A DNA stretch of 13,717 nt from Chloroflexota bacterium. GTDB lineage: Bacteria > Chloroflexota > Anaerolineae > Anaerolineales > Anaerolineaceae. The notes beneath the pieces are model-generated. The model was not told the DNA's origin, did no database searches, and worked only from the letters and a program-made list of their open reading frames with translations. The stretch lies in the NCBI GenBank assembly GCA_021796375.1, contig JAJYJF010000004.1, positions 1-13,717 of the forward strand. Reading direction: 5' to 3'. Position 1 is the first letter of the stretch; each line of letters opens with the position of its first letter. This document shows, piece after piece, positions 1 through 13,717 of the stretch. The position numbers and the translations under genes are program-made.

Positions 1-874
1 AAACAGGCTGAATAAAAGATCGATCCCGGAGCGACCGGGCGATAAAATCCTCAAAACTAGCTGGCCGCCGGCCGAGCAGCCCTGACAGCACGCTTGGATT
101 CCCCCAAAAGCCGTAGCGCTCGTAATAGCGGAACATTTGCAGCAGCGTCGCGATCGCGGTATCGGGCAGCCCCGCGGATCGGGAGGCTTGCTCCCAGCGG
201 CCGAGGGGCACCTGCTCGACGCGGACTGCTCTGCCCAGCAGGCGTCCCGCGATCTCGGCGACCTCCGTCTGGGTCAAGACTTCGCCGCCAGCCAGCTCGT
301 AGATCGCCCCGGCGTGGCCGGGCACGGTCATCACGACCGCGGCCGCGCCCGCTACATCCTCCAGGTCCACCATCCCCAAGCGGGTGGAAGCCGCGTAAGG
401 CACCGCGTAGATGCCATTCTGCGCCATGTTCTGCCACTGCGGCAGCAGGTTCTGCATGTATGCGGCCGGCTGCAGGATGGTGTATGCCAGCCCGGACTTG
501 AACAGCCGCTCTTCGACCCGCATTTTATTCCAGTGGTGCGGCATTTCCTCGATCTGAGGATGGAGCACCGAATGATATACGAACCGTGAAACACCCGCGG
601 AAACCGCCGCCTGGATGGCCATTTCTGCGATCCAGACCTCCGCAGGTTCCATGTTCGGGCAGATATGGTAGACCTGTTCGATGCCGTGAAACGCTTCCTT
701 AATCACCTGCGGGTCGTGCAGATCCCCGGCGAGGACTTCCGCTGCCCCCAGGGCGCGCATCGCATCCGCCTGTTCCGGCCGGTGGACCAGGACCCGGACC
801 GTGCTCCCCCGTTTCACGAGTGCATTTAAGACGGCGCGGCCAGTCTTCCCGCTGGCGCCTGTGATCAGGATCAT
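1..874 (-). CDS. NmrA-like NAD(P)-binding oxidoreductase (atypical SDR), 3' end cut by window edge
   Basis: The reading frame is open from the ATG at 874 to the left edge (291 codons, no stop), so only the very C-terminus is missing if it has the usual family length of about 280-300 residues. The N-terminus carries the Rossmann dinucleotide-binding motif TGASGKTG (residues 5-12) right after the first beta strand. HHWNKMRVEERL (about 113-124) and TILQPAAYMQN (about 132-142) are typical of the NmrA/YtfG group of atypical short-chain dehydrogenases, which act as NAD(P)H-dependent quinone or azo reductases or as redox sensors. The usual Tyr-x3-Lys catalytic pair of classical SDRs is not evident, as expected for the group. 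An in-frame ATG lies six codons upstream at 892, but the inner ATG gives the canonical start and has a GGGG stretch about 7 nt before it. It follows the permease by 125 nt and a strong hairpin, so it may be the operon tail or a separately expressed gene. The substrate is unknown. Confidence 0.88.
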   Translation of the reverse strand, partial: MILITGASGKTGRAVLNALVKRGSTVRVLVHRPEQADAMRALGAAEVLAGDLHDPQVIKEAFHGIEQVYHICPNMEPAEVWIAEMAIQAAVSAGVSRFVYHSVLHPQIEEMPHHWNKMRVEERLFKSGLAYTILQPAAYMQNLLPQWQNMAQNGIYAVPYAASTRLGMVDLEDVAGAAAVVMTVPGHAGAIYELAGGEVLTQTEVAEIAGRLLGRAVRVEQVPLGRWEQASRSAGLPDTAIATLLQMFRYYERYGFWGNPSVLSGLLGRRPASFEDFIARSLRDRSFIQPV

Positions 875-931
875 ACCTGCCCCGCTGTGCATCGATCCCA
901 GCCTAAAAACATCCGCATCAGGTCAGCCATT

Positions 932-999: not shown

Positions 1000-2442
1000 C
1001 TAGTCTGCCGCGGCGCTCTCGCCGACGGCTTCGCGCTCGTAGGACGGTTTGAAGAGCAGGAAGATGAGGTTCAGCAGGATCCCCAGCACGGCGCCTGTCG
1101 CGATGGCGGGCAGGCCGTACGGGAAGGCAATCCCCAGCGGCGGGAAGGGCAGGAAGCTGCCCGGGAAGCCGATGGTGCCGCCGATCCCCACGATGAGGAT
1201 GACCGCGCCGATCGCCAGCTGCTTCGGATCGAACAGGTTCACCTTCTCGGAGATCATCAGAGCAATCCCCTGCATGCCGATGACGCCAAACAGGTAGATC
1301 ATCAGGCCGCCGATGACGGGGGTCGGGATCGAGTTGACGATATCGGCGAGCGGCCCGATGAACCCGAGGACGATCGCGATGGCGCCCGCCGTGATCAGGG
1401 CCGGGCCGGAGTAGTTGCGGGTGATCACCATCAGCGAGTTGTTCTCGCCGTAGTTCGTGCCCGCGGTGGACCCGAAGATGCCGTTGATCATATCGTCCAG
1501 GCCGTCCAGCATCAGGTTCAGGCCCACATAGCGGCTCAACCCATACTTCTGGGAGCCCTTCTCCTCAGCCAGGTGATCCACGTACAGCGAGATCTGGTAG
1601 AGGTGCGCCGTGGATTCCGGGATGGTCGCGATGCACATAATGCCCACGCTGACGATCACCGTGATGGTTGCCGGATCGTTAAAGACCGGGAACGTAAATA
1701 TTGGGGCGGTGATGAAGCTGGAGTGAATCACGGTCCCGAAATTGATCAAGCCGCCGATGGCCGCAGCGATATACCCGGTGATGGCGCCCATCAAAACCGG
1801 CAGCAGCCCGATAAAGCCCTTATTCTGCAGGTAAACGGAATAACCGATGGTAGCGAGCAGGGTGACGAAAGCTACCACCCACCAGGTCAGGATGCCGTGC
1901 GGCGCGGCAGCCGCATCGTAACCGCTGGCTTCGGAAAGCGCGGTGGCGCCCAGGCCAATCCCGATGGTGCAGGCAACCGAGCCGGTGATGATCGGGGGCA
2001 GCACCTTATCCAGGGCTTCCTTCCCACCCGCCAGGCGGATGAGCAAGCCGACCAGCACGTTCAGGGTGCCGGTTGCCAGAAAGCCGGCCTGGACAACCGA
2101 CAGGGTGTGCGGGTCAGCCGCGACGCCAAGCTTGGCGTGGGTGATCGCGACTACCGCGGCAATGTAGCTGAAGCTCGAGCCATAATACAGCGGGATGAAC
2201 TTCCCCATGGATAGCTTGGACCCGACCAGCGCGGCGATCGTCCCCAGGCCGGTCACGGTCAAGACCGTGCTGACGTGGAAACCCATCAGCAGGGCGCACA
2301 GAACCGTCGCCGGGAACATGGTGACGACGTGCTGGAGCCCGAGCAGCAGCATTTTGCCAAATGGAGGCTGATCGTTTGGCAGGTAGCCATGAATTACCGG
2401 TCGCATGGCTACTGCTTTCGATTTGGCTGAGGTAGTGGCCAT
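1000..2442 (-). CDS. NCS2-family nucleobase permease, UraA-like (uracil/xanthine permease)
   Basis: This is a 480-residue polytopic inner-membrane protein with some 13-14 hydrophobic segments, the normal size for NCS2 (nucleobase-ascorbate) transporters, which take up uracil or xanthine/urate, usually with protons. GLQHVV (35-40) in the first membrane helix is the family's Gln-His motif. PESTAHL (275-281) supplies the Glu and His equivalent to substrate-contacting Glu241/His245 of E. coli UraA, and TNYGENNSLMVITR (329-342) is the signature segment with Glu333 matching UraA Glu290. The YGEN form resembles uracil permeases more than the N-x-G-x4-T form of xanthine/urate permeases, so uracil or a related pyrimidine is the better guess; specificity is not proven. 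The ATG at 2442 has an AAGGA ribosome site 8 nt upstream. It sits behind a small membrane protein gene and a molybdenum hydroxylase, so it probably imports the substrate of that enzyme. Confidence 0.9.
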   Translation of the reverse strand: MATTSAKSKAVAMRPVIHGYLPNDQPPFGKMLLLGLQHVVTMFPATVLCALLMGFHVSTVLTVTGLGTIAALVGSKLSMGKFIPLYYGSSFSYIAAVVAITHAKLGVAADPHTLSVVQAGFLATGTLNVLVGLLIRLAGGKEALDKVLPPIITGSVACTIGIGLGATALSEASGYDAAAAPHGILTWWVVAFVTLLATIGYSVYLQNKGFIGLLPVLMGAITGYIAAAIGGLINFGTVIHSSFITAPIFTFPVFNDPATITVIVSVGIMCIATIPESTAHLYQISLYVDHLAEEKGSQKYGLSRYVGLNLMLDGLDDMINGIFGSTAGTNYGENNSLMVITRNYSGPALITAGAIAIVLGFIGPLADIVNSIPTPVIGGLMIYLFGVIGMQGIALMISEKVNLFDPKQLAIGAVILIVGIGGTIGFPGSFLPFPPLGIAFPYGLPAIATGAVLGILLNLIFLLFKPSYEREAVGESAAAD

Positions 2443-2500
2443 CTGATTTATCCTTCCTTCAACTAGTTTGAGTGTTCCTGAAAAGGATGATTATGGTGAC

Positions 2501-2522
2501 GCATTACCCGCGCGGGCAATGC
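2501..2522. repeat. 22-bp near-perfect palindrome upstream of the permease
   Basis: GCATTACCCGC and GCGGGCAATGC form an 11+11 dyad with one imperfect pair, which would be a G-U wobble in the minus-strand transcript. It lies 59 nt before the permease start codon. With no loop it suits a dimeric DNA-binding protein better than an RNA hairpin, so it is a candidate operator; the protein is unknown. Confidence 0.4.
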
Positions 2523-2573
2523 ACGATGGAACTACCAACCATTTTTTCTTGCCCGGCCACCTCCTTTCGGGTT

Positions 2574-2611
2574 GCCTGCCATCCAGGGGGCGTCACGCCT
2601 GGATGGCAGGC
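2574..2611 (-). repeat. 14-bp perfect stem-loop between the small membrane protein and the permease
   Basis: The arms GCCTGCCATCCAGG (2574-2587) and CCTGGATGGCAGGC (2598-2611) are fully complementary, with a 10-base loop. On neither strand is it followed by a T-tract, so it is not a standard intrinsic terminator. A Shine-Dalgarno-like AAAGGAGGT follows at about 2568-2560 on the minus strand but precedes only a 12-codon frame. The structure could block 3' exonucleases or be an RNase site separating enzyme and transporter sections of the mRNA. Confidence 0.55.
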
Positions 2612-2655
2612 CTTTGACAAATGGAAAATTGCACCACTTCGACCCGGATTACTCC

Positions 2656-2844
2656 CTAGTGGGTAATCTGAGAGAGGATGTATGCCGCGATTAGAAAGAT
2701 GATTGCCACCGGGATGACATACATGACCATGCGTACTTCGGCGATCTGGTACCACTTCCGTTCGCCGACATCCTTCTGGTTGAGGGTGGTCACATCGGTG
2801 TAATCTTTTTGTTTTTCTTCTTGCTCGTTGAGGTCTTGAGTCAT
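2656..2844 (-). CDS. Small single-pass membrane protein, function unknown
   Basis: The protein has 62 residues. The first 37 are polar and charged (many Glu, Gln, Lys and Asp), followed by one hydrophobic segment at about 39-59 (VMYVIPVAIIF...LIAAYIL) and a three-residue tail, so it is probably C-tail anchored with the N-terminus in the cytoplasm. The start ATG has AAGGATG four bases upstream, and the gene lies 33 nt after coxG and 213 nt before the permease, all on the same strand. I do not recognise a family. It could be an accessory subunit or stabiliser of the permease, or an anchor that brings the soluble molybdenum hydroxylase to the membrane together with CoxG. Both roles are inferred from position only. 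Confidence 0.7.
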   Translation of the reverse strand: MTQDLNEQEEKQKDYTDVTTLNQKDVGERKWYQIAEVRMVMYVIPVAIIFLIAAYILSQITH

Positions 2845-2877
2845 TTTACATCCTTTGATTAATTTTTCAAACAGGGT

Positions 2878-3342
2878 TTAGTTAGGCGTTTTTCCAGCCA
2901 TTCGCGCCTGCAGGGTCTTATCCAGCGTCTCGAAGCCCTTATTGATCATGCTCTTGCCGACGCTTTCAATCAGGCGCTGGCCGATGGCGGCCAGTTTTCC
3001 GCCGATATTGAACTCGCCCGTATACTTGAGCAGGGTCTTATCTGGCGCTTGGGCTTCGAGGAAAACGTTGCCGACGCCTTTGGCGAACCCGGCGGCTCCC
3101 TTGCCCTCCACGGTCAGGGTGCAGCTCTCCGGGGGGACTTCATTCGAGACGGTCAGCCTGCCGGCGAAGCTGCCGGAGACCGGGCCGATGCGCACGTAGA
3201 TCCCGCCTTCGTATTCGTTCGGACTGATCTGCTTCAGGCTCTGGGTGCCGGGCAGGCAGCTGGCAAGGACCTCGGGGTCCCGCACCATCGCCCATACCTC
3301 CTCTCGCGGGCCGTTGAAAAGATAGTCGCCTTCAAGCTTCAT
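2878..3342 (-). CDS. CoxG-like SRPBCC-domain protein (carbon monoxide dehydrogenase subunit G family)
   Basis: The protein has 154 residues, covers one SRPBCC/START-like domain and lacks the C-terminal extension seen in longer CoxG proteins. The opening MKLEGDYLFNGPREEVWAMV, the CLPG at 29-32, the GFAKGVGNV strand (85-93) and the amphipathic helix GGKLAAIGQRLI (114-125) are typical of the CoxG family. Family members accompany molybdenum hydroxylases and, for aerobic CO dehydrogenase, have been implicated in attaching the enzyme to the cytoplasmic membrane. The gene starts 38 nt after the large subunit stop, with AAGGAAGGAA before the ATG, so it is cotranscribed with the enzyme. It is not a sign of CO oxidation by itself, because CoxG occurs with hydroxylases of many substrates. 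Confidence 0.88.
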   Translation of the reverse strand: MKLEGDYLFNGPREEVWAMVRDPEVLASCLPGTQSLKQISPNEYEGGIYVRIGPVSGSFAGRLTVSNEVPPESCTLTVEGKGAAGFAKGVGNVFLEAQAPDKTLLKYTGEFNIGGKLAAIGQRLIESVGKSMINKGFETLDKTLQARMAGKTPN

Positions 3343-3380
3343 GCGTTCTGTTCCTTCCTTCTGGTTCGGTTGTGGGCCGG

Positions 3381-5726
3381 TTATGCCTGTTTCGCGGCCT
3401 GGACGATTTGGAAGAGGCGGTTAGGACTGAGCGGGGCCTCGCTGATCTCCAGGTTGTACTCGGGCAGGGCATCCTCAACCGCCTGGACGAATGCCGGTGG
3501 GATCGGGATCGCCCCGGCTTCGCCCACGCCCTTGATCCCCAGCGGATTCAAGGGCGACGGGGTGTGCAGGTGGGCGATTTCGATGGGGGGCAGATCCGAC
3601 GCGCGCGGGATCAGATAATCCATGAACGAGGCGTTCTGCAGCTGCCCGTTGTCGTCCATCTCCAGCTTCTCAAAGAAAGAATTGCCGAGCCCGAGCCCGA
3701 CTCCGCCGTGGATCTGGCCTTCGAGGATCATCGGGTTGAGCACCGTGCCGCAGTCGTGGGCCATCACCAGGCGCTGGATGCGCGCGTTGAACGTATCCGG
3801 ATCTACCTCCACGATCATGGCGCAGCAGCCGTATGCGGTTGCGCCGTAAGGCGGTCCAAAATACGCGGTCGCTTCCAGTCCGGGTTCGGTGCCCGGCTCG
3901 ACCGCGCCGCGCGACGGGTTCGCCTTGACCGCCAGCTCCGCCAGGGAGATGCATCTGCTCGGGATGTCCGCCACGCGGACCATGCCATCGGCCAGCTCCA
4001 GCTCTTCCTCGGGCGCTTCAAGGATCTTGCTGGCCATCTTCAGGATCTTCTGGCGGACCAGCAGCGCGGCCGCGTTGACGGCGCTCCCGGCGACCGTTGC
4101 GCCCCGGCTGGCGAACGTCCCGGCGCCCCAGTGGAAGGCTTCCGTGTCGCCGGTCGTCACGAAGATATTCTTGGGGTCAACCCCCAGCTGCTCGGCGGCA
4201 ACCTGCGCGAAGGAGGTGAAATGCCCCTGCCCCTGGGTCCCAACGCCCGTCGACAGGTTGACCTTGCCGCTGGCTTCGACCGTGATCCGCGCGCCCTCGT
4301 ACGGCCCCACGCCGGATCCCTCCGTGAAGAACGAGATCCCCAGGCCGACGTGCTTGCCCTCCGCGCGCAGCCGGGGCTGCTCCTCCTTGAGAAACGCCTC
4401 GTAGCCGATCATCTCCTTGGCTTTATCGAGGGCTGCCGGGTAGTTGCCGCTGTCGAGCACGTTCTTGGCGAAGTCCTGCCCGACGATGCCGGTCTTATAG
4501 GGGAACTCGTCCGGCTGGATCATGTTCATGCGGCGGATTTCCGTCCGGTCCATGCCGAGCCGTTTCGCCGCCTTGTCCATCAGGCGCTCCATGACGAACG
4601 TGCCGTAGGTGCGCCCGGCGCCGCGCAGCGGGGTCACCAGGATGCGGTTGGTGAACACGACCCGGTATTCGGTCAGGTAGTTGGCGACCTTGTACGGCCC
4701 GGTGGTGTGGGTCTGGGTGTTAAGCGGGATCGTGAGCGCGTAGGAGTTGTAGGCGCCGGTATCGTGGATGAACACGTCCTTGACGCCGAGGATCTTCCCA
4801 TCCCGGGTGAGGGCCATCTCGGCCTCATGGATCTGGCGGCGCTCCTGGCTGGTGTCGCCGAAGTTTTCCTGCCGGTCCTCGATCCACTTGACCGGCCGCC
4901 CGAGCTGGAGGGAGGCCCAGGAGACGACGATCTCTTCCGGCTGGTAGAGCAAGATTTTCGGGCCGAAGCCGCCGCCGACGAACGGCGCAATCACGCGGAT
5001 CTGATGCTCGGATAAGCCCAGGATCGTGGCCAGCCCGTTCCGCAGCGCGATCGGTCCCTGGGTGGTCGCCCACATGGTCAGGGATTGGCTCTTGTTATCC
5101 CAGGAAGCCACATATCCCCGGTTCTCCAGGGCGGCAGCCGTTCCGCGTTCCATGACGATGTGCGTCTTGACGATGAGATCGGCCCGGGCTGCCGCCTCGG
5201 CGTAGCTGCCGTTCTCCTGGTGAACGAAGGAGGCCAGGTTGGTGCCGAGATCTTCATACAGCAGCGGCGAGCCTTCGCCCAGGGCTTTCTCGAGGTCGAT
5301 GACCGCCTCCAGCGGCTCGTAATCCACCACGATTTCCGCCGCGGCGTCCTCCGCGATGTAGCGGCTCTCGGCGATGACCACCGCAACCGCTTCGCCCTGG
5401 TGGCGCACCTTATCCTTCGCCATCGGCACCTGGGTGCGCTGGTTGAACACCACCCCGGGGATCCCGGAGGGCGGCGGCACGTTCAGCGGTCCCGGCTTCC
5501 AGATCTTGCCAAGATCGGCCGCCGTATAGACCGCCACCACACCCGGGTGCTGCCTGGCGGCCGAAGGATCGATGCTTTTAATCCAGGCATGCGCGTAATC
5601 GGAGCGCAGGAAAGCCGCGTGCAGCATGCCCGGCAGCTGCACGTCATCGACAAACAGCGCCTGCCCGGTGAGCAGCCGCGGGTCTTCGTTTCTCTTCAGT
5701 CTTTGACCTAGGTATTTTCCGGCCAC
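3381..5726 (-). CDS. Molybdenum hydroxylase large (molybdopterin-binding) subunit, CoxL/XdhA family, substrate unknown
   Basis: The subunit has 781 residues, a normal length for separate large subunits. The N-terminal a/b hammerhead domain (about 15-135) is followed by the molybdopterin domains. Visible motifs are TTQGP (221-225), GGGFGPK (251-257), RGAGRTYG (368-375), TQGQGHFT (497-504) and the catalytic Glu736 in KGVGEAGAI (732-740), which in this family activates the hydroxylating water. The active-site loop is RGAGRTYG instead of the CO-dehydrogenase AYxCSFR, so it is not a form I CO dehydrogenase. It also departs from the common RGAGRPE, so the pocket is probably specialised. It hydroxylates a carbon of a heterocycle or aldehyde at a Mo-oxo-sulfido centre. 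The start is GTG with GAGGTGA just upstream, overlapping the stop of the 2Fe-2S subunit; the gap is 4 nt. Given the neighbours, a pyrimidine or imidazole-type ring is the favoured substrate (inference). Confidence 0.93.
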   Translation of the reverse strand: MAGKYLGQRLKRNEDPRLLTGQALFVDDVQLPGMLHAAFLRSDYAHAWIKSIDPSAARQHPGVVAVYTAADLGKIWKPGPLNVPPPSGIPGVVFNQRTQVPMAKDKVRHQGEAVAVVIAESRYIAEDAAAEIVVDYEPLEAVIDLEKALGEGSPLLYEDLGTNLASFVHQENGSYAEAAARADLIVKTHIVMERGTAAALENRGYVASWDNKSQSLTMWATTQGPIALRNGLATILGLSEHQIRVIAPFVGGGFGPKILLYQPEEIVVSWASLQLGRPVKWIEDRQENFGDTSQERRQIHEAEMALTRDGKILGVKDVFIHDTGAYNSYALTIPLNTQTHTTGPYKVANYLTEYRVVFTNRILVTPLRGAGRTYGTFVMERLMDKAAKRLGMDRTEIRRMNMIQPDEFPYKTGIVGQDFAKNVLDSGNYPAALDKAKEMIGYEAFLKEEQPRLRAEGKHVGLGISFFTEGSGVGPYEGARITVEASGKVNLSTGVGTQGQGHFTSFAQVAAEQLGVDPKNIFVTTGDTEAFHWGAGTFASRGATVAGSAVNAAALLVRQKILKMASKILEAPEEELELADGMVRVADIPSRCISLAELAVKANPSRGAVEPGTEPGLEATAYFGPPYGATAYGCCAMIVEVDPDTFNARIQRLVMAHDCGTVLNPMILEGQIHGGVGLGLGNSFFEKLEMDDNGQLQNASFMDYLIPRASDLPPIEIAHLHTPSPLNPLGIKGVGEAGAIPIPPAFVQAVEDALPEYNLEISEAPLSPNRLFQIVQAAKQA

Positions 5727-5730
5727 GGTT

Positions 5731-6225
<495 letters not shown>

Positions 6226-6226
6226 A

Positions 6227-7111
6227 TCAGCCTCTCTTCCCCCTCGCTCGCTCGCCTGCTTCTTCCAGGGATTTCGCCACCAGAACGCGAATGAGGTGCC
6301 GGCGGTATTCTGGCGAGCAGTGGATGTCTCCGCCCGGATCGGTATCGACGGTCGCGGCCGCTTCCGCCGCGGCTTCGATCGTCTCCGGGGTGAGCAGCTT
6401 GCCGGCCAGGCTCGCTGCCGCACGCCCCGCCAGGACGGGCGTTTCGCCCACCGAAAGGAGGGCGATGCGGGCAGCCGCCACCCGCTCGCCGGGATCCAGT
6501 GTGACCACAGCGGCCACGCCCACCAGCGCCTGCGCCCCGGCCTGGCGAGCCATCTGATGGTAGCTCGTCCCAGTGCGGGCGGGGAGCGCCGGAATTTCAA
6601 CCTCTACCAGCAGCTCATCGGGCTCCATCGCGGTGGTAAACGGCCCGAGGAAGAACTCGTCGCACCCTACCCAGCGGTCGCCGTTCTTGCTGCGGATGTG
6701 ATAGCGAGCGTTCAAGGCCAGGGTTACCGCCGGGAGATGGCCGGCAGGGTCCGCGTGGGCGATTGCCCCGCCGAAGGTCCCGCGGTTCCGGATTTGCGGG
6801 TGAGCGATGAACGGCATCGCCTGGAGGATGACCGGGAAGCGCTCGGCCACCATCGGGTTGTGCTCGACATCGCTGTCTCGGGTCATCGCGCCGATGACGA
6901 CCCCGCCGTCCGGCGCGGGTTTGATATAAGCAAGATCGGGAATATTGTTCAAATCCAGCAGCGCAGGTGGTTGGGCCAGGCGGAAGTTCATGGACGGCAC
7001 CAGGCTTTGCCCACCTGCCAGCACCTTGATGTCATATCCTTTTTCCGAAAGGATATCCAGCGCCTCGTCAACGCTGGCGGGTGCGTAGTAATCGAATGGG
7101 GCAGGTTTCAT
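6227..7111 (-). CDS. Molybdenum hydroxylase medium subunit, FAD-binding (CoxM/XdhB type)
   Basis: The subunit has 294 residues and the usual family length. The N-terminal FAD-binding domain has [10 protein letters not shown] (32-41) and [16 protein letters not shown] (108-123), which match the two FAD-contacting loops of the CO dehydrogenase medium subunit family. The CO_deh_flav_C-type domain occupies the C-terminal third. It passes electrons from the 2Fe-2S clusters to NAD, a quinone or another acceptor. No 4Fe-4S insertion of the 4-hydroxybenzoyl-CoA reductase kind is seen. The ATG at 7111 is preceded by GGAGG, 10 nt away. It is the first gene of the hydroxylase block and is separated from the cyclase gene by 176 nt with a hairpin, which may mark a processing site or a weak internal promoter region. 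Confidence 0.93.
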
Positions 7112-7158
7112 TTAGGATTAACCTCCTCAAACCGCGATGGATCAGCAAAAACCCCTAT

Positions 7159-7217
7159 CCACCCTGTCGGTGGTTATCTCCCAGAGCCCTGTGGCAGTCT
7201 TCCCGCGGGGCTCTGGG
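7159..7217 (-). repeat. Hairpins in the gap between the cyclase and hydroxylase genes
   Basis: CCCAGAGCCC (7180-7189) and GGGCTCTGGG (7208-7217) form a perfect 10-bp stem with an 18-base loop. A smaller stem, CCACC/GGTGG at 7159-7173, follows in the direction of transcription, then GGATAGGGG and five Ts on the minus strand. The second stem plus delayed T-run could act as a weak terminator reducing read-through from the upstream genes into the hydroxylase genes. I see no convincing promoter in this 176-nt gap. Confidence 0.45.
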
Positions 7218-7287
7218 CTAACGTTTATGGATTCTGTGCCGGCAGGATCGCTGCTGCGAGGATGCATGCTCGCGATCTGGCCGGGGA

Positions 7288-8958
7288 TCAGCCTTCCGCG
7301 AAGGCCACGAACCTGCCCCACATGGATTCTGCCTCCATCGCCCGCTGGACGTAGCAGCCGATATAGTACCGGCCGCTGGGCAGCGAGTTCAGATCCTTCC
7401 CGAGATTTTCGGCATGGACGATCCGCTTGGGGAACAGGTTGAAATGCATATCCTGGTAGTACTTTTCCAGTGGGAACATCTCATCCCAGTCTTTCCCAAA
7501 GTCGCGCTTGAGCTTCTCGTTCGCTTCCTGGAAGGTCTTCGGATGCCAGATTCTCTGGATAGTATTCATAGGGTGATCGGCTGCCACACAGTCGATCCCG
7601 ATCCACTTGATTTTTCTTTTTGCGATCCAATCCGCGAAATCCGGGGAGGGACCCGGGTGCTTGATCATGTAGCGGAACTCGTCAGAATCCGGGCTGGTCC
7701 AGCCCAGCTTGCCCCATCCCGTTTTGATGATCAGGATGTCGCCGTCGTGCAGGTCGACGACGCTTTCGATCATTTCAGGAGTATAAACACTCGAGTTGCT
7801 CACCAGGTGTGAGATATCGGCGACGACGCCCGGGCCAACCCATTCATCCAGGGGGACCTCGCCGATCGTCCGCCCGCGCGGGTAGAAGTGCTTTTCCCCG
7901 TCCATGTGGGTGGCCAGGTGGATGGATGCGTTGCAGATCGATCCATTGCGCCCCATGCCGAAGTACTGGCCGCCCACCCGCTTGGTGTACTTCACCGTCA
8001 GGGGCTCGTAGTTCGCCCACTGGGGGGATTGGACGCTGAAGGGGACGGATAGGTCGAACATCTTCGCCGATTCCATCGCCGCGTAGAAGTCCTCCGCCTT
8101 CATGTTATCCGGCGCCTGGTACGCAGCCACCCGGGACCAGGCGGATTCGACTTCCATGAAGGGGATCGGCTCGCAGGTGATCCACGCCCGCTGGTTGCTC
8201 AGCTTGTTGATGTCGCCGACGATGCATTCGACCATCACCAGGTGAGATTTTGGCATCTCCAGGTGGGTGAGCTCGTAGTACTCATCCACCGGGAAGACCT
8301 CATCCCAGTGTTTGCCGGTTGCATCGCAGAGCTTCTGGTCGGCCAGCTTGAAGTGATTCTCGTGCCAGCGCCGGATGGGGGTGTTCATCGGGTGTTCGGC
8401 GCTGCCGCAGTCGACACCGATCCACTTCAATTTCATGTCCATCGCCCAGCGGTAGAACTGCATCGAGGGCCCGGGGTGGCGGACCAAGTAGCCAAACTCT
8501 TTCCCTTCGACCCCGCCCTGCGCGTTCGGGTTGACGGTATCCGGCTGGTCCCAGGAGTAGCGGTTGTAGCCGGTATTCACGATCAGGATGTCGCCCGGCT
8601 TTACGTTGACCTTCGAGAGGATCATCTCCGGGGTGTACACGCTGTAATCGGAGACCAGGTCAGAGATGTCGGCGATGACCCCTTCGCCGCTCAGGTCTTT
8701 GAGCGGGATCTCGCTGATCGCCCGCCCGCCGGAGTGAAATGCGCGCTCTCCAACCAGGTGGGTGCCGACCGTGTTGCTCCAGTTGAATATCTGGCCGTTC
8801 GCCCCCGCGCCACCGCCGAACGCGCCGGTGAGCCGCTTGAAGAAGTGAACCTCGAGCGCTTTCTCCATGGGCCACGGTGGGGTGTAGATGCTGCACTGCT
8901 GGGTCAGATCATAGAGTTTTGCGCCTGCCATCATCTTGATGAACTCGTTACGATCCAT
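7288..8958 (-). CDS. Tandem cyclase-family (isatin hydrolase/kynurenine formamidase-like) hydrolase
   Basis: The protein has 556 residues, twice the usual 210-290 of this metal-dependent hydrolase family, because it is an internal duplication. Matching segments are VYTPEMI (107-113 and 391-397), DILIVNTG/DILIIKTG (123-130 and 407-414), RHPGPSMQFYRW/KHPGPSPDFADW (160-171 and 433-444) and KWIGVDC/KWIGIDC (178-184 and 451-457). The family metal motif H-x-G-T-H-x-D is kept in the second half as HLATHMD (347-353) but has decayed to TVGTHLV (63-69) in the first, so only the C-terminal half should be catalytic. Family members open cyclic amides or cleave formamides with a divalent metal, so a cyclic-imide ring-opening role fits. 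The start is the ATG at 8958, with GGAGG 5 nt upstream; the ATG at 8970 overlaps that site and has none of its own. The product is likely cytoplasmic because no signal peptide is seen. Confidence 0.88.
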   Translation of the reverse strand: MDRNEFIKMMAGAKLYDLTQQCSIYTPPWPMEKALEVHFFKRLTGAFGGGAGANGQIFNWSNTVGTHLVGERAFHSGGRAISEIPLKDLSGEGVIADISDLVSDYSVYTPEMILSKVNVKPGDILIVNTGYNRYSWDQPDTVNPNAQGGVEGKEFGYLVRHPGPSMQFYRWAMDMKLKWIGVDCGSAEHPMNTPIRRWHENHFKLADQKLCDATGKHWDEVFPVDEYYELTHLEMPKSHLVMVECIVGDINKLSNQRAWITCEPIPFMEVESAWSRVAAYQAPDNMKAEDFYAAMESAKMFDLSVPFSVQSPQWANYEPLTVKYTKRVGGQYFGMGRNGSICNASIHLATHMDGEKHFYPRGRTIGEVPLDEWVGPGVVADISHLVSNSSVYTPEMIESVVDLHDGDILIIKTGWGKLGWTSPDSDEFRYMIKHPGPSPDFADWIAKRKIKWIGIDCVAADHPMNTIQRIWHPKTFQEANEKLKRDFGKDWDEMFPLEKYYQDMHFNLFPKRIVHAENLGKDLNSLPSGRYYIGCYVQRAMEAESMWGRFVAFAEG

Positions 8959-8963
8959 ATTTG

Positions 8964-8968
8964 CCTCC
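8964..8968 (-). promoter_or_regulatory. Ribosome binding site deciding the cyclase start
   Basis: GGAGG followed by CAAAT and ATG (8958). It overlaps the alternative upstream ATG at 8970, which shows that the shorter 556-residue form is the intended product. Confidence 0.7.
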
Positions 8969-9032
8969 ATATATTGTCAGTAGCCGCCGCCCCGGTTTCC
9001 CACAACCGCGCTGCGGAATGTGAATGGCCGGT

Positions 9033-10277
9033 TTAGTACCCGTACTTCTCTGCGAAGGCGACCAGTGCATCCTCAAAGATGTTCGCCGGGGGCGTGACCA
9101 CGCCCGCGCCGACCTGTCCGACGCCGGGCTCGCGGTGAGCAACGCCCGTATTTACCCGCGGCAGGATCCCCTTCTCGACCACTTTGCGAATATCCACCCC
9201 GGTGGGCGTGCCGCGGAAATCGAGGTAGGGGATGGTGAAAAATTTATGCTCGGCGTAGGTGATCTCGTACATATCCAGGGTGGTATTCACCGCGTCCTTG
9301 GCGGTCCCGCCGATAAAGGTAACGATCGCCGGAGCCGAGGCCATGGCAAAGCCGCCGAAACCGGCCGTCTCGGTGATGGTCGAATCGCCGATATCCGGAT
9401 TGGCGTCTTTTTCGCTGAAGCCGGGGAAGTACAGCGCTTTCACCATGCCGGCCGGCCCGGTGAACCAGCTTTCCCCCAGCCCGCTGACGCGGATTCCGAA
9501 ATCGGTCCCGTTGCGGGCCATCACGGTGACGATCGTGCTGCCTTCCACGTTATCGCCCGCGGCCGTCATCGATTTCGCCGCGGCCATCACCGGGTTCAGG
9601 ATGCTCAGCGCATTTTCACCGAGGAACTTGATTACTTCGTAGGCGGTCGATGGATTTTTCGCGACCCGGGCAACGTGGGGCGCCAGGGCAGTTGTGTAGA
9701 GCTGAGACGCGGCGTCCAGGCGGTTGTGGCCATCGTCGCCCATGTGCAGCGCCTTGGCCAGCATGGTCCGGATATCGATCCCGCCCACCGATTTCAGGGC
9801 TGCATCGACGGTCGGTCCGAGGACCTCGTTCATCCAGGTCAGCTTGGCGATGACCTCGGGGCTGTAAGCGCCCATGCGTAAAACTTTCCCGCGGCCTTCG
9901 TTCAGCCCGGAGTAGGCTTTGTTCCCGTGGGTGGTATTCTCCACGACATAAACCATCATCGAAGGGGAGATCAGCCCGGCCATTGGACCCGCGGCGTTGT
10001 GATGGTGGCAGGGCTCGAACGCGACCTCGCCTGCCTGGATGAGCGCTTCGGCCTCGGCGGCGTCCTTCGCCATCCCCTCGAAGATGAGCGCGCCGTATGC
10101 GGCGCCTTTCATGGGTCCGGCCATCCGCTCCCAGGTGACCGGCGGCCCGGCGTGCAGCAGCAGGTTGGGTTTCATCCCCGGGATAACGTCGATCGCCTTC
10201 CCCATGCCGGTCAGGATCGGATGGGCTTCCATCATTCGCTCGACTGCGGTGGTGTTTGCTTTTTCTATGTCAATCAT
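9033..10277 (-). CDS. DUF1116 protein, YlbE/AllG-like (oxamate carbamoyltransferase subunit family)
   Basis: The protein has 414 residues from the ATG at 10277, close to E. coli YlbE. Conserved blocks visible are HAGPPVTWERMAGPMKGA (42-59), EPCHHHNAAGPMAG (88-101), THGNKAYSG (116-124) and MGDDGHNRLDA (179-189); these His/Asp-rich loops are plausible active-site elements. In E. coli, YlbE works with FdrA and YlbF as the oxamate carbamoyltransferase (AllFGH), which converts oxalurate and phosphate to oxamate and carbamoyl phosphate at the end of anaerobic allantoin breakdown. The neighbouring FdrA gene 66 nt upstream supports a joint complex here. The start chosen has GGAGG 7 nt upstream; a GTG at 10322 is in frame but lies inside a hairpin and adds 15 unconserved residues. 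The substrate could be oxalurate or another ureido acid. Confidence 0.9.
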   Translation of the reverse strand: MIDIEKANTTAVERMMEAHPILTGMGKAIDVIPGMKPNLLLHAGPPVTWERMAGPMKGAAYGALIFEGMAKDAAEAEALIQAGEVAFEPCHHHNAAGPMAGLISPSMMVYVVENTTHGNKAYSGLNEGRGKVLRMGAYSPEVIAKLTWMNEVLGPTVDAALKSVGGIDIRTMLAKALHMGDDGHNRLDAASQLYTTALAPHVARVAKNPSTAYEVIKFLGENALSILNPVMAAAKSMTAAGDNVEGSTIVTVMARNGTDFGIRVSGLGESWFTGPAGMVKALYFPGFSEKDANPDIGDSTITETAGFGGFAMASAPAIVTFIGGTAKDAVNTTLDMYEITYAEHKFFTIPYLDFRGTPTGVDIRKVVEKGILPRVNTGVAHREPGVGQVGAGVVTPPANIFEDALVAFAEKYGY

Positions 10278-10284
10278 TCGGGTT

Positions 10285-10289
10285 CCTCC
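10285..10289 (-). promoter_or_regulatory. Ribosome binding site deciding the DUF1116 start
   Basis: GGAGG lies 7 nt before the ATG at 10277 and just after the T4 tail of the intercistronic hairpin, favouring this start over the GTG at 10322. Confidence 0.7.
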
Positions 10290-10293
10290 AGTG

Positions 10294-10337
10294 AAAAGCC
10301 GCCCGCGGGTGAGGCTCCCCACTCACCGGCGAGCGGC
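10294..10337 (-). terminator. Terminator-like hairpin between fdrA-like and DUF1116 genes
   Basis: In the minus-strand transcript GCCGC-U-CGC-C-GGUGAG pairs with CUCACC-C-GCG-G-GCGGC (10337-10322 with 10313-10298). That gives 15 pairs including one wobble, with one C-C mismatch and an 8-base loop, followed at once by UUUUC (10297-10293). It begins 6 nt after the fdrA-like stop and ends before the DUF1116 ribosome site. This has the layout of an intrinsic terminator with a short U-tract, so it is probably partial, or a 3'-end stabiliser that sets the ratio of the two subunits. Confidence 0.5.
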
Positions 10338-10343
10338 ATGAGA

Positions 10344-12068
10344 TTACCGCTGCTTCATTCTTTCAAGGATGGACATCAATCGATCGTTCCCCCCGGCTGG
10401 CGGGCGCCAATCTACCTGAACCGTGGGGACATTCTGTACTTTCAGGTTCTCGGAGAAGGACTCCAGGCCGACGTTGATCCCCGCCAGGGGTTTTTGCAAC
10501 CCGGTTAAATCGACCGGGGTGGAAGCGGCGCCGTCCGGGGTGGGCTGCGCGTTCAGGCCCTGCAGGATCTGCCCGGCGTAACGGACCACCTCTTCGTTGC
10601 TGGTGCTGACCCATACCCCGGCGCCTTTCAGCTGCTCGATCTGATGATCCAGGTTCTGGGGATCCTCGCCGGTACCGGTGACCACGGCCACCACCTCAAG
10701 ATACCTGCCGCCCGCTTCCGCTGCCTTTTTAGCCTTCACGACCGCCGGGGCCAGCTCGCTGGCCGGATCGGGATGAGATCCAAAGCCGATCACCACGTCG
10801 AGCATGATCACGGCTACGCTCGGATCCTCCCCTTCCTCAAGCAGCCTGCGGATGCGGAGCTCGTTATCCATCATGGGGTGCAGGCGGCCCACGGTGAACT
10901 CATCCTCCCCCAGGTCCACAATCGTATGTTCCTGGCTGATCAATGAGTTGGCCAGCTTGTACTCTTTGTTGAGCGGAGCGTTCGCCCATACCCTGGGCAG
11001 GTAGCCCTGCAGGATGTACTGTGCTTCATAAGCCAGCGTCCCGCCGGAAAAGAGGCCGCGGAAGTAGCGCTGCCCGGGAGCAAAACGCTCGAGCGGGAGG
11101 GATCCCGCCTTCGCCTGCGGGGGATTTTTAACCAGCTCCACGGCCATCTGGGCGGCTTCGTCCAGGCTGCCGGCAAAATACAGGTTCTCGATCTGGCGGG
11201 CAGCCAGCGGGCGAGCGATGAAGTTGACCACGACCGGCTTCCCCGCCTTCCGCGCCACCTGCAGCACTTCATCTGCCACCCTGGGCGCCGGCGGCTTGGA
11301 GACCAGCACGATCACCGCCGTTTCCGGGTCCCGGCTGAGGACGTCGATTCCCTGCTTGAAGGTGATCGCGCCGACCTTCTCTGAGAGATCCCGGCCGCCG
11401 GTGCCGATCCCATAGCTGACCCCGCCGCCCATCTGGTGGATGCGCGACGTCACCTGCTGCAGCCCAGTCCCTGCCGCCGCCACGACGCCGATCGGTCCCA
11501 GGCGAACCTTGTTTGCGAACCCCAACCCCACCCCATGGATGATCGCCGTCCCGCAGTCGGGACCCATCACCAGCAGGCCCTTGCTGGATGAAATTTGTTT
11601 CAGGCTGATTTCATCGTCCACGGAGACGTTGTCGCTGAACAGGAAGACGTGTTTTCCGAGCCGGAGAGCCTCGCGCGCTACCCCGGCAGCATAGCGCCCC
11701 GCGACCGAGATCAAGACCCATTCCGCGTCCGGCAGGTCATTCACCGCGGTTTCAAGCGACTGCGGGCGGTGTTCTTCCGAGACGGCGCTCTTCCGCTTCG
11801 TGAGCAGCTCATCCACCTTGCCCAGCGCTCCGGCGGCGACAGCTTCGCTCTCCGCGCGTACGACCAGCACCAGGTCATCCGGCTTCGCCTTCTCGACTTC
11901 CGGGGATAGAAGGTCGATGTGGGCAAGCAGCTCCTTGTTTCCCTCGGTACCCATCACCACCCCGGCGTCCAATACGCCCGGCAGGGCAGCAAGGTTGCGC
12001 TGCAGCTGCATCAGAAAAGCGGAATCAAAATAAGCGCCGGATCGAATTTCTGCTTTTGTGGCTGGCAA
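10344..12068 (-). CDS. FdrA/AllF-like protein (succinyl-CoA synthetase fold; oxamate carbamoyltransferase subunit family)
   Basis: The protein has 574 residues from a TTG start. The N-terminal segment KAEIRSGAYFDSAFLMQLQRN resembles E. coli FdrA. The CoA-ligase-like domain holds MGPDCGTAI (168-176) and GIGTGGRDLSEKVGAITFKQ (220-239), which corresponds to the GIGGDP loop of succinyl-CoA synthetase alpha. The C-terminal half, resembling the ligase domain, has GLFSGG, DLGEDEFTVGRLHPMMD and DVVIGFGSHPDP. I see no equivalent of the phosphohistidine motif GHAGA, as expected for FdrA, which is not an acyl-CoA synthetase but part of the oxamate carbamoyltransferase in E. coli. The TTG at 12068 has a perfect AGGAGG (12079-12074) 5 nt before it. 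The frame stays open to a TTG at 12101 but that has no ribosome site. It is the first gene of the operon, and the neighbour DUF1116 is its expected partner. Confidence 0.9.
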   Translation of the reverse strand: MPATKAEIRSGAYFDSAFLMQLQRNLAALPGVLDAGVVMGTEGNKELLAHIDLLSPEVEKAKPDDLVLVVRAESEAVAAGALGKVDELLTKRKSAVSEEHRPQSLETAVNDLPDAEWVLISVAGRYAAGVAREALRLGKHVFLFSDNVSVDDEISLKQISSSKGLLVMGPDCGTAIIHGVGLGFANKVRLGPIGVVAAAGTGLQQVTSRIHQMGGGVSYGIGTGGRDLSEKVGAITFKQGIDVLSRDPETAVIVLVSKPPAPRVADEVLQVARKAGKPVVVNFIARPLAARQIENLYFAGSLDEAAQMAVELVKNPPQAKAGSLPLERFAPGQRYFRGLFSGGTLAYEAQYILQGYLPRVWANAPLNKEYKLANSLISQEHTIVDLGEDEFTVGRLHPMMDNELRIRRLLEEGEDPSVAVIMLDVVIGFGSHPDPASELAPAVVKAKKAAEAGGRYLEVVAVVTGTGEDPQNLDHQIEQLKGAGVWVSTSNEEVVRYAGQILQGLNAQPTPDGAASTPVDLTGLQKPLAGINVGLESFSENLKVQNVPTVQVDWRPPAGGNDRLMSILERMKQR

Positions 12069-12618: not shown

Positions 12619-13344
12619 ATGAGACTCGAACCGCCAGAAAAGGTATCGCAAGAACAGATCACCATCGATGTCCGGGAAATTGAGCCGCTCCTCCAGGCGC
12701 CAGCCATGGAGTTGCCCGCCTGGCCGGAAGCCATGATCAAGATGAGGGATGGCCGCATCCTTTACATCCGCCAGGCGAAGCTGGAAGATGTGCCCCTGAT
12801 GCTCGAGTACATGCGAAAGGTAATGAACGCCGACCACGACTTTTATGATATTGTCGGCGCCCGCGTCTACGCGGAGATCCTCGGCTGGTACCGCAGCCGG
12901 CTGAAGGACCCCTTCCACCTGATCGGCACGTTCGACGGGGTTTGGGCTGGGCTCGCCAACGGCCGGGTGATGAACGAGGATGTGGCGATCAGCCTGCACA
13001 CCATGACGTTTGCCCGCCGCGGCCGCATCGGCTACGCGATGTATTATGCAAAAACCTACTACGCTCTCGAAATCTTGAAGTGCAAAGAGTGGTGGTCGAC
13101 CTTCGAAAGCTACAACGGCTGGCGCATGGCCGGCCTTGAAATGGCCCAACCCACCTACCCCTGGCCCGAGTACCAGCACGAGCTCGGCGGGGCGCGGGTT
13201 TACTACGTCACCAAGCGCTATTGGGACCAGGCGCTGCGGAATTTCTGCCCCCAGATGATCGGCAGCGACCTGACTTTCGACGTCCCGGACGAGGTGCGTA
13301 AAGCGAACGAGGTCTTCAAGCTGCCCGAGGAAGTCGTCGTTTAA
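12619..13344 (+). CDS. GNAT-like acyltransferase-fold protein, divergent from the operon
   Basis: The protein has 241 residues and a good AAGGAG ribosome site 8 nt before the ATG. After a 40-residue polar N-terminal stretch, MRDGRILYIRQAKLEDVPLM (42-61) is the typical first strand and helix of the GNAT fold. HLIGTFDGVWAGLANGRV (100-117) gives the next strands, and ARRGRIGYAMYYAKTYYAL (132-150) occupies the place of the acetyl-CoA pyrophosphate loop but lacks a clean Q/R-x-x-G-x-G/A. FESYNGWRMAGLEMA (162-176) resembles the terminal NxxxxxLY/kLGF-type helix. The acyl donor and acceptor are unknown, and the imperfect loop leaves open that it binds a ligand without catalysis. Its divergent position and mirrored start-site octamers suggest shared control with the catabolic operon. 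No helix-turn-helix is seen, so it is not an evident regulator. Confidence 0.8.
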   Translation: MRLEPPEKVSQEQITIDVREIEPLLQAPAMELPAWPEAMIKMRDGRILYIRQAKLEDVPLMLEYMRKVMNADHDFYDIVGARVYAEILGWYRSRLKDPFHLIGTFDGVWAGLANGRVMNEDVAISLHTMTFARRGRIGYAMYYAKTYYALEILKCKEWWSTFESYNGWRMAGLEMAQPTYPWPEYQHELGGARVYYVTKRYWDQALRNFCPQMIGSDLTFDVPDEVRKANEVFKLPEEVVV

Positions 13345-13422: not shown

Positions 13423-13717
13423 ATGATCGCCCAGTCTCTCAGTGGAAAATGGAAATTCCGCCGCCTTCCGGATGGGGACTGGCAGCCCGCGGAAGTGCCT
13501 GGCAGCGTCCACCTGGACCTGATGCGCCTGCAGCAGCTCCCTGATCCTTTCTTCCGGGAGCAGGAGAAGGACGCCGCCTGGGTGGCTGAATCGGATTGGG
13601 AATATGCCCTTCAGTTTGACTGCTTGCCGGAGCTGCTTGCCCAGCCGCGCATCTGGCTGACCGCCGGCGGATTGGACACGCTTGCCGAGGTGAACCTGAA
13701 CGGGCAGCACCTCGGCA
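13423..13717 (+). CDS. Beta-mannosidase, glycoside hydrolase family 2, N-terminal part only
   Basis: Only the first 98 codons are in the window; family members run to about 800-900 residues. The N-terminal jelly-roll sugar-binding domain of GH2 beta-mannosidases is clear: LSGKWKFR (6-13), VPGSVHLDL (25-33), DPF (41-43), the W59-E60-Y61 core and GLDTLAEVNLNG (83-94). It would release terminal beta-1,4-linked mannose from manno-oligosaccharides. There is no signal peptide, so the enzyme is probably cytoplasmic. The catalytic glutamates lie beyond the edge. It appears unrelated to the nucleobase operon and marks the start of another functional unit. Confidence 0.92.
   Translation, partial: MIAQSLSGKWKFRRLPDGDWQPAEVPGSVHLDLMRLQQLPDPFFREQEKDAAWVAESDWEYALQFDCLPELLAQPRIWLTAGGLDTLAEVNLNGQHLG

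Follow-up and report, generated by a model that had tools for sequence, protein, structure and literature searches.

Genes at the locus

The window analysed here, by which we mean the whole stretch of 13,717 bases, is contig C252 of a Chloroflexota metagenome-assembled genome (MAG) that is 64% complete and, as judged by its nearest relatives, of the Anaerolineae type. Its minus strand carries a run of genes that we consider a candidate operon for the oxidative degradation of pyrimidines, wherein the last step is predicted to be an energy-conserving phosphorolysis. In order of transcription these are AllF, AllG, a cyclase-family hydrolase, CoxM, CoxS, CoxL, CoxG, a small open reading frame (ORF), an NCS2 permease and an NmrA-family gene. 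They are listed below together with a divergent gene on the plus strand.

10344 to 12068, minus strand: AllF (FdrA), the acyl-coenzyme A (CoA)-synthetase-like subunit of a predicted acylurea phosphorylase (PRK06091, 550 bits against a cut-off of 433; PDB 3dmy, ‘Protein fdrA’)
9033 to 10277, minus strand: AllG (YlbE/DUF1116) subunit (PF06545 AllG, 306 bits; PDB 3clq, an uncharacterized protein)
7288 to 8958, minus strand: two-domain cyclase-family hydrolase of 556 amino acids, the predicted barbiturate ring opener (two PF04199 stretches)
6227 to 7111, minus strand: CoxM, the flavin adenine dinucleotide (FAD) subunit of a molybdenum hydroxylase (PF00941, PF03450)
5731 to 6213, minus strand: CoxS, the 2Fe-2S subunit (PF00111, PF01799)
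3381 to 5726, minus strand: CoxL-like molybdopterin subunit, the predicted large subunit of a uracil/thymine dehydrogenase (PF01315, PF02738, PF20256)
2878 to 3342, minus strand: CoxG-type accessory protein (PF06240)
2656 to 2844, minus strand: ORF of 62 amino acids for a one-helix membrane protein, flanked by CoxG and the permease (with a match in the same position in 10 of 80 related loci)
1000 to 2442, minus strand: NCS2 nucleobase symporter with ligand residues of the pyrimidine type (PF00860; best PDB match the uracil permease 3qe7)
2 to 892, minus strand: NmrA-family NAD(P)-binding protein that follows the permease and runs off the window edge (PF05368)
12619 to 13344, plus strand: protein of 241 amino acids with a predicted GNAT fold, divergent from AllF (AlphaFold2 mean predicted local distance difference test score, pLDDT, of 81)

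The start codon of AllF is a TTG at 12068, preceded by CAGGAGGG, and the best start for AllG is the ATG at 10277, which corrects an earlier reading. An earlier note on this DNA had placed a UraA-like permease, a three-subunit molybdenum hydroxylase, a cyclic-amide hydrolase-family protein, FdrA and DUF1116 on one strand between 1000 and 12068, and Pfam and NCBIfam profile matches locate each of these families there, on the minus strand. That list was right in what it named but left out CoxG, NmrA, the small ORF, the GNAT gene and the fact that the cyclase has two domains.

Distribution of the gene set

A comparison of the window AllG with a collection of species genomes yielded 83 relatives, and the 80 best loci were retained for analysis. 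This set was picked by AllG similarity, and many of its contigs are cut. Genes were counted by six-frame searches with hidden Markov models (HMMs), because a length-greedy gene caller lost real genes beneath long antisense ORFs; the counts are not independent of the 80 loci, since the HMMs were built from them. AllG was matched in 78 loci, AllF in 75, the cyclase in 55 and the hydroxylase large subunit in 53 (38 of the window type and 15 of another type), with the permease in 39, the GNAT gene in 34 and NmrA in 29. Hydroxylase and cyclase occur together in 45 of the 80 loci, and the order AllF-AllG-cyclase-CoxM-CoxS-CoxL is kept on one strand in 34. By phylum, this pair is present in 38 of 51 Chloroflexota loci, in 3 of 13 Bacillota loci (7 more have the hydroxylase alone), in one locus each from Thermodesulfobacteriota, Thermotogota and Caldisericota, and in one locus without a phylum label. 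The earlier note would have been contradicted had the families failed to co-occur beyond this genome; all five of these named phyla hold hydroxylase, cyclase and AllFG together. Both hydroxylase and cyclase are absent from the 10 Nitrospirota AllG loci in the set.

An even draw of 400 Chloroflexota genomes included 73 with AllG, and from these came 78 AllG stretches, the window’s own being left out (5 of the 78 are the same records as in the 80-locus set). Within 9.5 kilobases (kb) of AllG, the hydroxylase was found in 33 of the 78 stretches, the cyclase in 32 and both in 29 (Fisher p = 7e-14), and the genes are often reordered or on opposite strands, as where AllH-AllF-AllG-kinase faces CoxM-CoxS-CoxL-cyclase. 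Twenty control stretches of about 20 kb, which were hand-chosen from other coordinates in AllG-bearing genomes and are not random draws, held one hydroxylase and one weak cyclase, and none held both. The grouping of these genes is not due to chance. At the level of genomes, 17 of the 400 (the window’s included) carry a CoxL at least 60% identical to that of the window, and AllG is present in all 17 versus 56 of the 383 others (p = 5e-14). At a CoxL score of 720 bits, AllG is present in 37 of 39 genomes versus 36 of 361 others, a line that was set after the list had been seen and below which AllG-less genomes abound.

Two stricter propositions were rejected. AllFG is not always partnered with the hydroxylase, which is lacking within 9.5 kb in 45 of the 78 sampled AllG loci (contigs are often cut), nor is the hydroxylase always partnered with AllFG, given three hydroxylase-plus-cyclase loci in genomes without AllG. 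Isochorismatase-type genes lie near AllG in 10 of the 78 loci and never with the hydroxylase beside them (0 of 10), so that AllG occurs in no fewer than two different settings.

Permease and hydroxylase

In an alignment to Escherichia coli transporters, the window permease keeps the UraA residues A31, F73, E241, H245, Y288, G289 and E290, with Phe at Y342. The residues H245, Y288 and E290 are common to the pyrimidine symporters UraA and RutG, whereas XanQ and UacT, which carry xanthine and urate, have Asp or Met, Phe and Gln at these positions. Among the 39 permeases of the first set (window included), 28 show the pattern F-E-H-Y-E-N. Nine others, from Bacillota, Thermodesulfobacteriota and Caldisericota, have Asp in place of the His and keep the Glu of transmembrane helix 10 (one is without data at F73), and two, both from Bacillota, have Gln at the E290 position.

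The window CoxL has the catalytic Glu. The active-site cysteine loop of aerobic carbon monoxide (CO) dehydrogenase reads AYxCSFR; at this position the window protein has PxRGAGR, as do all 29 sequences of what we refer to as clade A. We have rejected an identity as CO dehydrogenase because the cysteine loop is missing in all 29. Against solved chains, the window CoxL scores 546 bits with CO dehydrogenase, 517 with quinoline oxidoreductase and 162 with xanthine dehydrogenase, and its relatives among the best 120 matches listed carry the database names CO dehydrogenase large subunit and xanthine dehydrogenase family. To our knowledge, the genes for uracil dehydrogenase are unassigned.

The CoxL of the actinomycete Embleya sp. 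NBC_00888 (NZ_CP108785), whose barbiturase-bearing cluster is described below, is 44% identical to that of the window. In a first tree it fell inside a clade of AllFG-linked Chloroflexota proteins, with the Bacillota-type proteins forming a separate clade closer to the background, and in a more careful tree the group uniting the actinomycetes with the cyclase-bearing clusters was supported 100/99. The background of the first tree was thin (20 near AllG-less genomes, best match 34% identical), and other AllG-less Chloroflexota genomes hold CoxL proteins at 41-53% identity. To the final tree were added 22 CoxL sequences from AllG-less genomes (20 fetched at the 41-53% level, plus L256 and L257). 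The clade held, with 21 rows and 97% support in the Shimodaira-Hasegawa-like approximate likelihood ratio test (SH-aLRT), and comprises 14 AllFG-linked proteins, 2 from loci with an AtzD-family gene, 2 from actinomycetes and 3 from AllG-less genomes (L256, L298 and L299). Each of these last three has an adjacent cyclase; for the 19 AllG-less rows outside the clade, a cyclase was found in none of the stretches searched, some of which are short. The genomes of L298 and L299 (G382 and G199) have a hydroxylase of the window clade beside a divergent cyclase gene.

Four clusters from Bacillota and Desulfovibrio (L085, L088, L090 and L091) carry YqeB/YqeC-type genes, which we take to be accessory to selenium-dependent hydroxylases, and therefore the hydroxylase of these clusters may be a selenium enzyme.

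A two-domain cyclase

The window cyclase contains PF04199 twice in a single chain, and the metal motif is confined to the C-terminal copy. All 42 double proteins keep HxxxHxDxxxH in the C half, and in an alignment of the halves all 42 lack three of the four metal ligands in the N half, which is yet itself conserved; single-length relatives keep the motif in all 25 cases listed. As judged from these residues, the protein fits an internal pseudo-dimer with one putatively dead half. A structural model of the cyclase resembles isatin hydrolases and kynurenine formamidases in fold matches, although the model is only moderate (pLDDT 71, with low values in the motif regions).

Barbiturase-bearing relatives

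Two Actinomycetota records, from Embleya and Nonomuraea, have AllH-AllF-AllG facing PucR-NCS2-CoxM-CoxS-CoxL, with a barbiturase in the region and no cyclase in the stretches searched. In Embleya, about 31 kb hold AllH-AllF-AllG and PucR-NCS2-CoxM-CoxS-CoxL-CoxG-nitrilase along with carbamate kinase, a CaiB CoA-transferase, NmrA, an AccA/AccD-like carboxyltransferase (below NCBIfam cut-offs) and a cytosine deaminase (580 bits; cut-off 483). The Embleya barbiturase scores 594.6 bits with PDB 5hwe (‘Barbiturase’) versus 324 with the best cyanuric acid hydrolase. One barbiturase residue is given as Gln (PMC4051656), and in our alignment both the 5hwe chain and the Embleya protein show Asn there. 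Three distinct Anaerolineae loci (L045, identical with L171; L044, identical with L172; and L055, identical with L174) carry CaiB, AllF, nitrilase, AllG, cyclase, NmrA, DinB, CoxM, CoxL and CoxG. This is much of the Embleya set with a cyclase in place of the barbiturase, and it is from the comparison of the Embleya and Anaerolineae sets that we read the pathway intermediate as barbiturate.

The AtzD/barbiturase family (TIGR02714) was found neither in the window genome nor in the 16 others whose CoxL reaches 60% identity or more, and hence we regard the cyclase as the candidate ring opener in the relatives of the window. In the 400 genomes the family occurs in 18 (17 above the cut-off), and the stretches around it contain a window-type CoxL match in 15 of 18, of which 14 are strong and one, L277, has a CoxL-like neighbour on a very long branch. 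By motif, two of these loci are of the barbiturase type, namely L277 (459 bits to 5hwe) and L278 (whose stretch contains no CoxL). A further one is of the cyanuric-acid-hydrolase type, while 13 are of another type, whose best solved relative, from the one member tested, is 5hy0 (‘Ring-opening amidohydrolase’). Loci L279-L289, L291 and L292, from one Chloroflexota family, have the AtzD-family gene convergent to cyclase-CoxM-CoxS-CoxL and Asn where cyanuric acid hydrolases have Arg188. One AtzD-family run that was examined includes a ligase whose best family is malonyl-CoA synthase (413 bits; cut-off 558), a permease resembling RutG (391 bits; cut-off 759) and a protein similar to cytosine deaminase (289 bits; cut-off 438). 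We rejected the idea that cyclase and barbiturase are constant alternatives, since 11 of the 18 AtzD-family loci have both; there, the cyclase or the AtzD-family protein might decarbamoylate.

AllFG, AllH and carbamate kinase

The AllF and AllG homologues share one operon in the window, and AllH is present in one copy on another contig of the same genome (C327), with a carbamate kinase on a further contig (C329). The third subunit that is needed in E. coli and the kinase are therefore available, though outside the operon. Among the 17 genomes with the closest CoxL, AllH was found in 16 (in 11 of these 16 on the same contig and within 20 kb of AllG) and carbamate kinase in all 17, of which 16 are above the cut-off. 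The AllH of the window genome adjoins a divergent methylmalonyl-CoA-decarboxylase-alpha-like gene (776 bits, below the cut-off of 999) and a gene weakly related to c12, which encodes a small protein and ends related clusters.

In an AllG tree, the actinomycete proteins stand next to the AllG of hydroxylase-plus-cyclase clusters (91%), and the E. coli protein sits in another part. A single clade of hydroxylase-linked AllG was considered and rejected, as this label is scattered across the tree. Contig C426 of the window genome has two more carbamate-kinase-like genes near a second molybdenum hydroxylase with the other type of CoxL (L255:1519-5147). In E. coli K-12, yahE, yahF, yahG, yahI and yahJ (L219:2926-9508) make up a second AllH-AllF-AllG-carbamate-kinase set, which includes an amidohydrolase matching a cytosine-deaminase-like model (110 bits).

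Proposed pathway

On the basis of the gene identities, conservation, permease residues, tree positions and neighbourhoods observed above, we consider it fairly probable that the operon serves oxidative pyrimidine degradation with a phosphorolytic end step, where every reaction, direction and substrate is inferred. The UraA-like symporter would import uracil (or thymine), which the CoxM-CoxS-CoxL hydroxylase would oxidise at C6 to barbiturate (or 5-methylbarbiturate). Ring opening by the cyclase, a metal-dependent protein, would then yield ureidomalonate (or the methyl derivative), which is an acylurea longer than oxalurate by one CH2. AllF-AllG, joined by the AllH encoded elsewhere in the genome, could split ureidomalonate with phosphate into malonamate and carbamoyl phosphate, and the carbamate kinase, likewise encoded elsewhere, would use the latter to make ATP. 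Finally, malonamate might be hydrolysed to malonate and enter CoA metabolism through an amidase and a CoA-transferase or ligase such as those of the relatives. We hold the pyrimidine/barbiturate part on its own with greater confidence than the pathway in full, and the assignment of the cyclase as barbiturate ring opener, which is the least sure step, with less.

The earlier note had offered two branches, one through ureidomalonate and one from hydantoin through parabanate to oxalurate. The former and bolder branch is probably right. It agrees with the pyrimidine-type permease residues, with the barbiturase and cytosine deaminase of Embleya and with the 15 of 18 Chloroflexota loci in which a hydroxylase gene accompanies one of the barbiturase family, and for the latter branch no supporting gene was found. 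The same note knew of no description of this gene combination, and our search agrees: among open-licence papers in PubMed Central, we found none that links AllFG to barbiturate, to uracil or to a molybdenum hydroxylase.

A broader formulation, to which we would give even chances, is that several phyla have an energy-conserving oxidative pyrimidine pathway in which proteins of this CoxL clade are uracil dehydrogenases and the pseudo-dimer with one dead half represents a new class of barbiturate ring opener. The AllFG(H) proteins would then be general acylurea phosphorylases, acting on ureidomalonate here, on oxalurate in E. coli and probably on (carboxy)biuret behind cyanuric acid hydrolase. 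If the proposal is true, the opening reaction of oxidative pyrimidine degradation would acquire its genes, the known barbiturate hydrolase would be joined by a second one of separate descent, and the annotation of many proteins currently labelled as CO dehydrogenase or xanthine dehydrogenase would have to be revised. AllFGH, so far tied to a single purine reaction, would become a wider family of acylurea phosphorylases. Moreover, the last step would be an ATP-yielding phosphorolysis as opposed to a urea-yielding hydrolysis, a difference that would matter most when energy is scarce.

Points against the proposal and alternative interpretations

Several points weigh against the proposed pathway, and readers should treat it as a candidate, given that all enzyme activities, phosphorolysis included, are predicted. 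Carbamate kinase and AllH both lie outside the window operon, and the E. coli enzyme needs all three of its subunits in vivo; moreover, the AllFGH assays used oxamate and carbamoyl phosphate (PMC11326118). Malonamate is drawn from amidase and CoA genes of relatives, whose best named families fall below their cut-offs, and none of these genes is in the window. AllFG is not a constant partner, as is evident from the three hydroxylase-plus-cyclase loci in AllG-less genomes and from the AtzD-family stretches, where a strong cyclase match is present in 11 of 18 and AllFG in none. These AtzD-family genomes are themselves not independent, because 17 of the 18 share one family code. Embleya is a single full example, and the barbiturase relative of Nonomuraea lies about 41 kb from AllG. 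The substrate of the Bacillota clusters may differ, because their CoxL is on another branch and their permeases have Asp at H245, with Gln at E290 in two. The cyclase might instead be a ureidomalonase. Lastly, absences in the window genome mean little because it is only 64% complete.

This last role for the cyclase belongs to an alternative that we judge unlikely, although it would still amount to oxidative pyrimidine degradation: the cyclase may be decarbamoylating (ureidomalonase-like), another enzyme may open the ring, or AllFG may act on a side product. The 11 AtzD-family loci with a cyclase beside another ring opener and no AllFG are in keeping with a decarbamoylating cyclase, as are the three further AllG-less loci with hydroxylase and cyclase. 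Enzymes that open rings, such as isatin hydrolase, and enzymes that hydrolyse open-chain amides, such as kynurenine formamidase, both occur in PF04199, and the structural model resembles either kind. However, AllFG in the window already offers a decarbamoylating step and the AtzD/barbiturase family was found in none of the 17 genomes whose hydroxylase is closest, so that ring opening is the role left vacant for the cyclase.

We regard as improbable a pathway to oxalurate, for example from hydantoin via parabanate, with AllFG(H) as a plain oxalurate phosphorylase. The E. coli AllFGH enzyme is proven on oxamate/oxalurate (PMC11326118), and the window AllF and AllG are clear homologues. Set against this are the pyrimidine-type residues of the NCS2 permease, the Embleya cluster with its barbiturase and cytosine deaminase, the pairing of hydroxylase and barbiturase-family genes noted above and the place of the E. 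coli AllG elsewhere in the AllG tree. Furthermore, hydroxylation of hydantoin at the sp3 carbon C5 would be unusual for this enzyme family.

A purine route, wherein xanthine or a similar purine would be the substrate of the hydroxylase and allantoin-derived oxalurate that of AllFG, seems to us slightly more doubtful still. Some relatives among the best 120 listed are named as xanthine dehydrogenase family by NCBI, PucR-type regulators lie beside 10 of the 78 sampled AllG loci, and genes for an ATCase-like transcarbamylase, a carbamate kinase and an allantoinase stand side by side in the same genome (contig C329; L032:33-3276). Yet these transcarbamylase and allantoinase genes are on another contig than the window, the permease residues differ from those of XanQ and UacT, and CoxL is far closer to CO dehydrogenase and quinoline oxidoreductase than to xanthine dehydrogenase. 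It is very improbable that the neighbours merely share an operon and are functionally unrelated (oxidation of CO or aldehydes, hydrolysis of kynurenine or isatin), as the automatic name CO dehydrogenase large subunit and a weak arylformamidase match would have it, given that hydroxylase and cyclase both accompany AllG in 29 of the 78 loci sampled, in shuffled or divergent arrangements, that the pair spans five phyla in the first set and that the cysteine loop is missing.

Comparison with known systems

The proposed oxidative pyrimidine pathway with a phosphorolytic end combines features of systems that are otherwise separate. With the AllFGHK system of E. coli it shares homologous AllF and AllG, the presence of AllH and carbamate kinase in the genome, and, as predicted here, the splitting of an acylurea with phosphate and the gain of ATP from carbamoyl phosphate. 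The window AllF and AllG differ in their neighbours, which include a pyrimidine-type permease, a cyclase and a molybdenum hydroxylase but neither AllH nor the kinase, in the place of AllG in its tree and in their predicted substrate, ureidomalonate.

The classic oxidative pyrimidine pathway converts barbiturate to malonate and urea (PMC3758960) by means of barbiturase and ureidomalonase. The predicted course from uracil through barbiturate to ureidomalonate is the same, and a hydroxylase of the same clade lies near the Embleya barbiturase. In contrast, the predicted ring opener of the window belongs to PF04199 and not to the AtzD/barbiturase family, and the last step of the route is predicted to be phosphorolytic, yielding carbamoyl phosphate, where the classic one is hydrolytic and yields urea (PMC3758960). 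The operon may thus encode a phosphorolytic version of this pathway with a different ring opener. The reductive pyrimidine pathway is not matched: PreA-type dihydropyrimidine dehydrogenase exceeded the NF006183 cut-off in none of the 17 genomes with the closest CoxL, and weak matches occur in all 17 and likewise in all 14 controls.

Nucleobase nitrogen is known to be recovered as carbamoyl phosphate from allantoin (AllFGH, PMC11326118), allantoate (PMC4016543) and uric acid (YgeW, PMC12507026). The YgeW reductive uric acid pathway and the UGTCase phosphorolysis of allantoate resemble our proposal in releasing nitrogen in this form (PMC12507026, PMC4016543), but they are purine routes whose transcarbamylases belong to another family than AllFGH. 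The transcarbamylase, kinase and allantoinase trio on contig C329 resembles the allantoate phosphorolysis set (PMC4016543).

In nitrifiers, AllFGHK adjoins biuret genes (PMC12625717). Plasmids of Aminobacter (L116:7253-12346) and Shewanella (L117:3567-11210) are similar to the window in having a ring-opening amidohydrolase, here of the cyanuric-acid-hydrolase type, beside AllF, AllG, DUF2877 and carbamate kinase. They differ in that a triazine would take the place of the pyrimidine and no molybdenum hydroxylase is present in the stretches; the Shewanella plasmid carries an NCS2 permease with purine-type residues. The plasmid AllFGH may cleave (carboxy)biuret by phosphorolysis. Matches to AllG together with a ring opener of the cyanuric-acid-hydrolase type occur in many Enterobacterales plasmid records.

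Other features of the window

A search of the window against Rfam gave no match at the gathering threshold. The divergent 241-amino-acid protein has no Pfam match, and acetyltransferases make up most of the 50 Foldseek matches listed for its GNAT-fold model; the gene is probably a partner of the cluster. Its relatives in Clostridium and Holophagaceae adjoin genes for a thiolase-like protein and a zinc-ribbon/OB protein. Further along the plus strand, positions 13423 to 13716 hold the start of an ORF that, as judged by eye, resembles a glycoside hydrolase.

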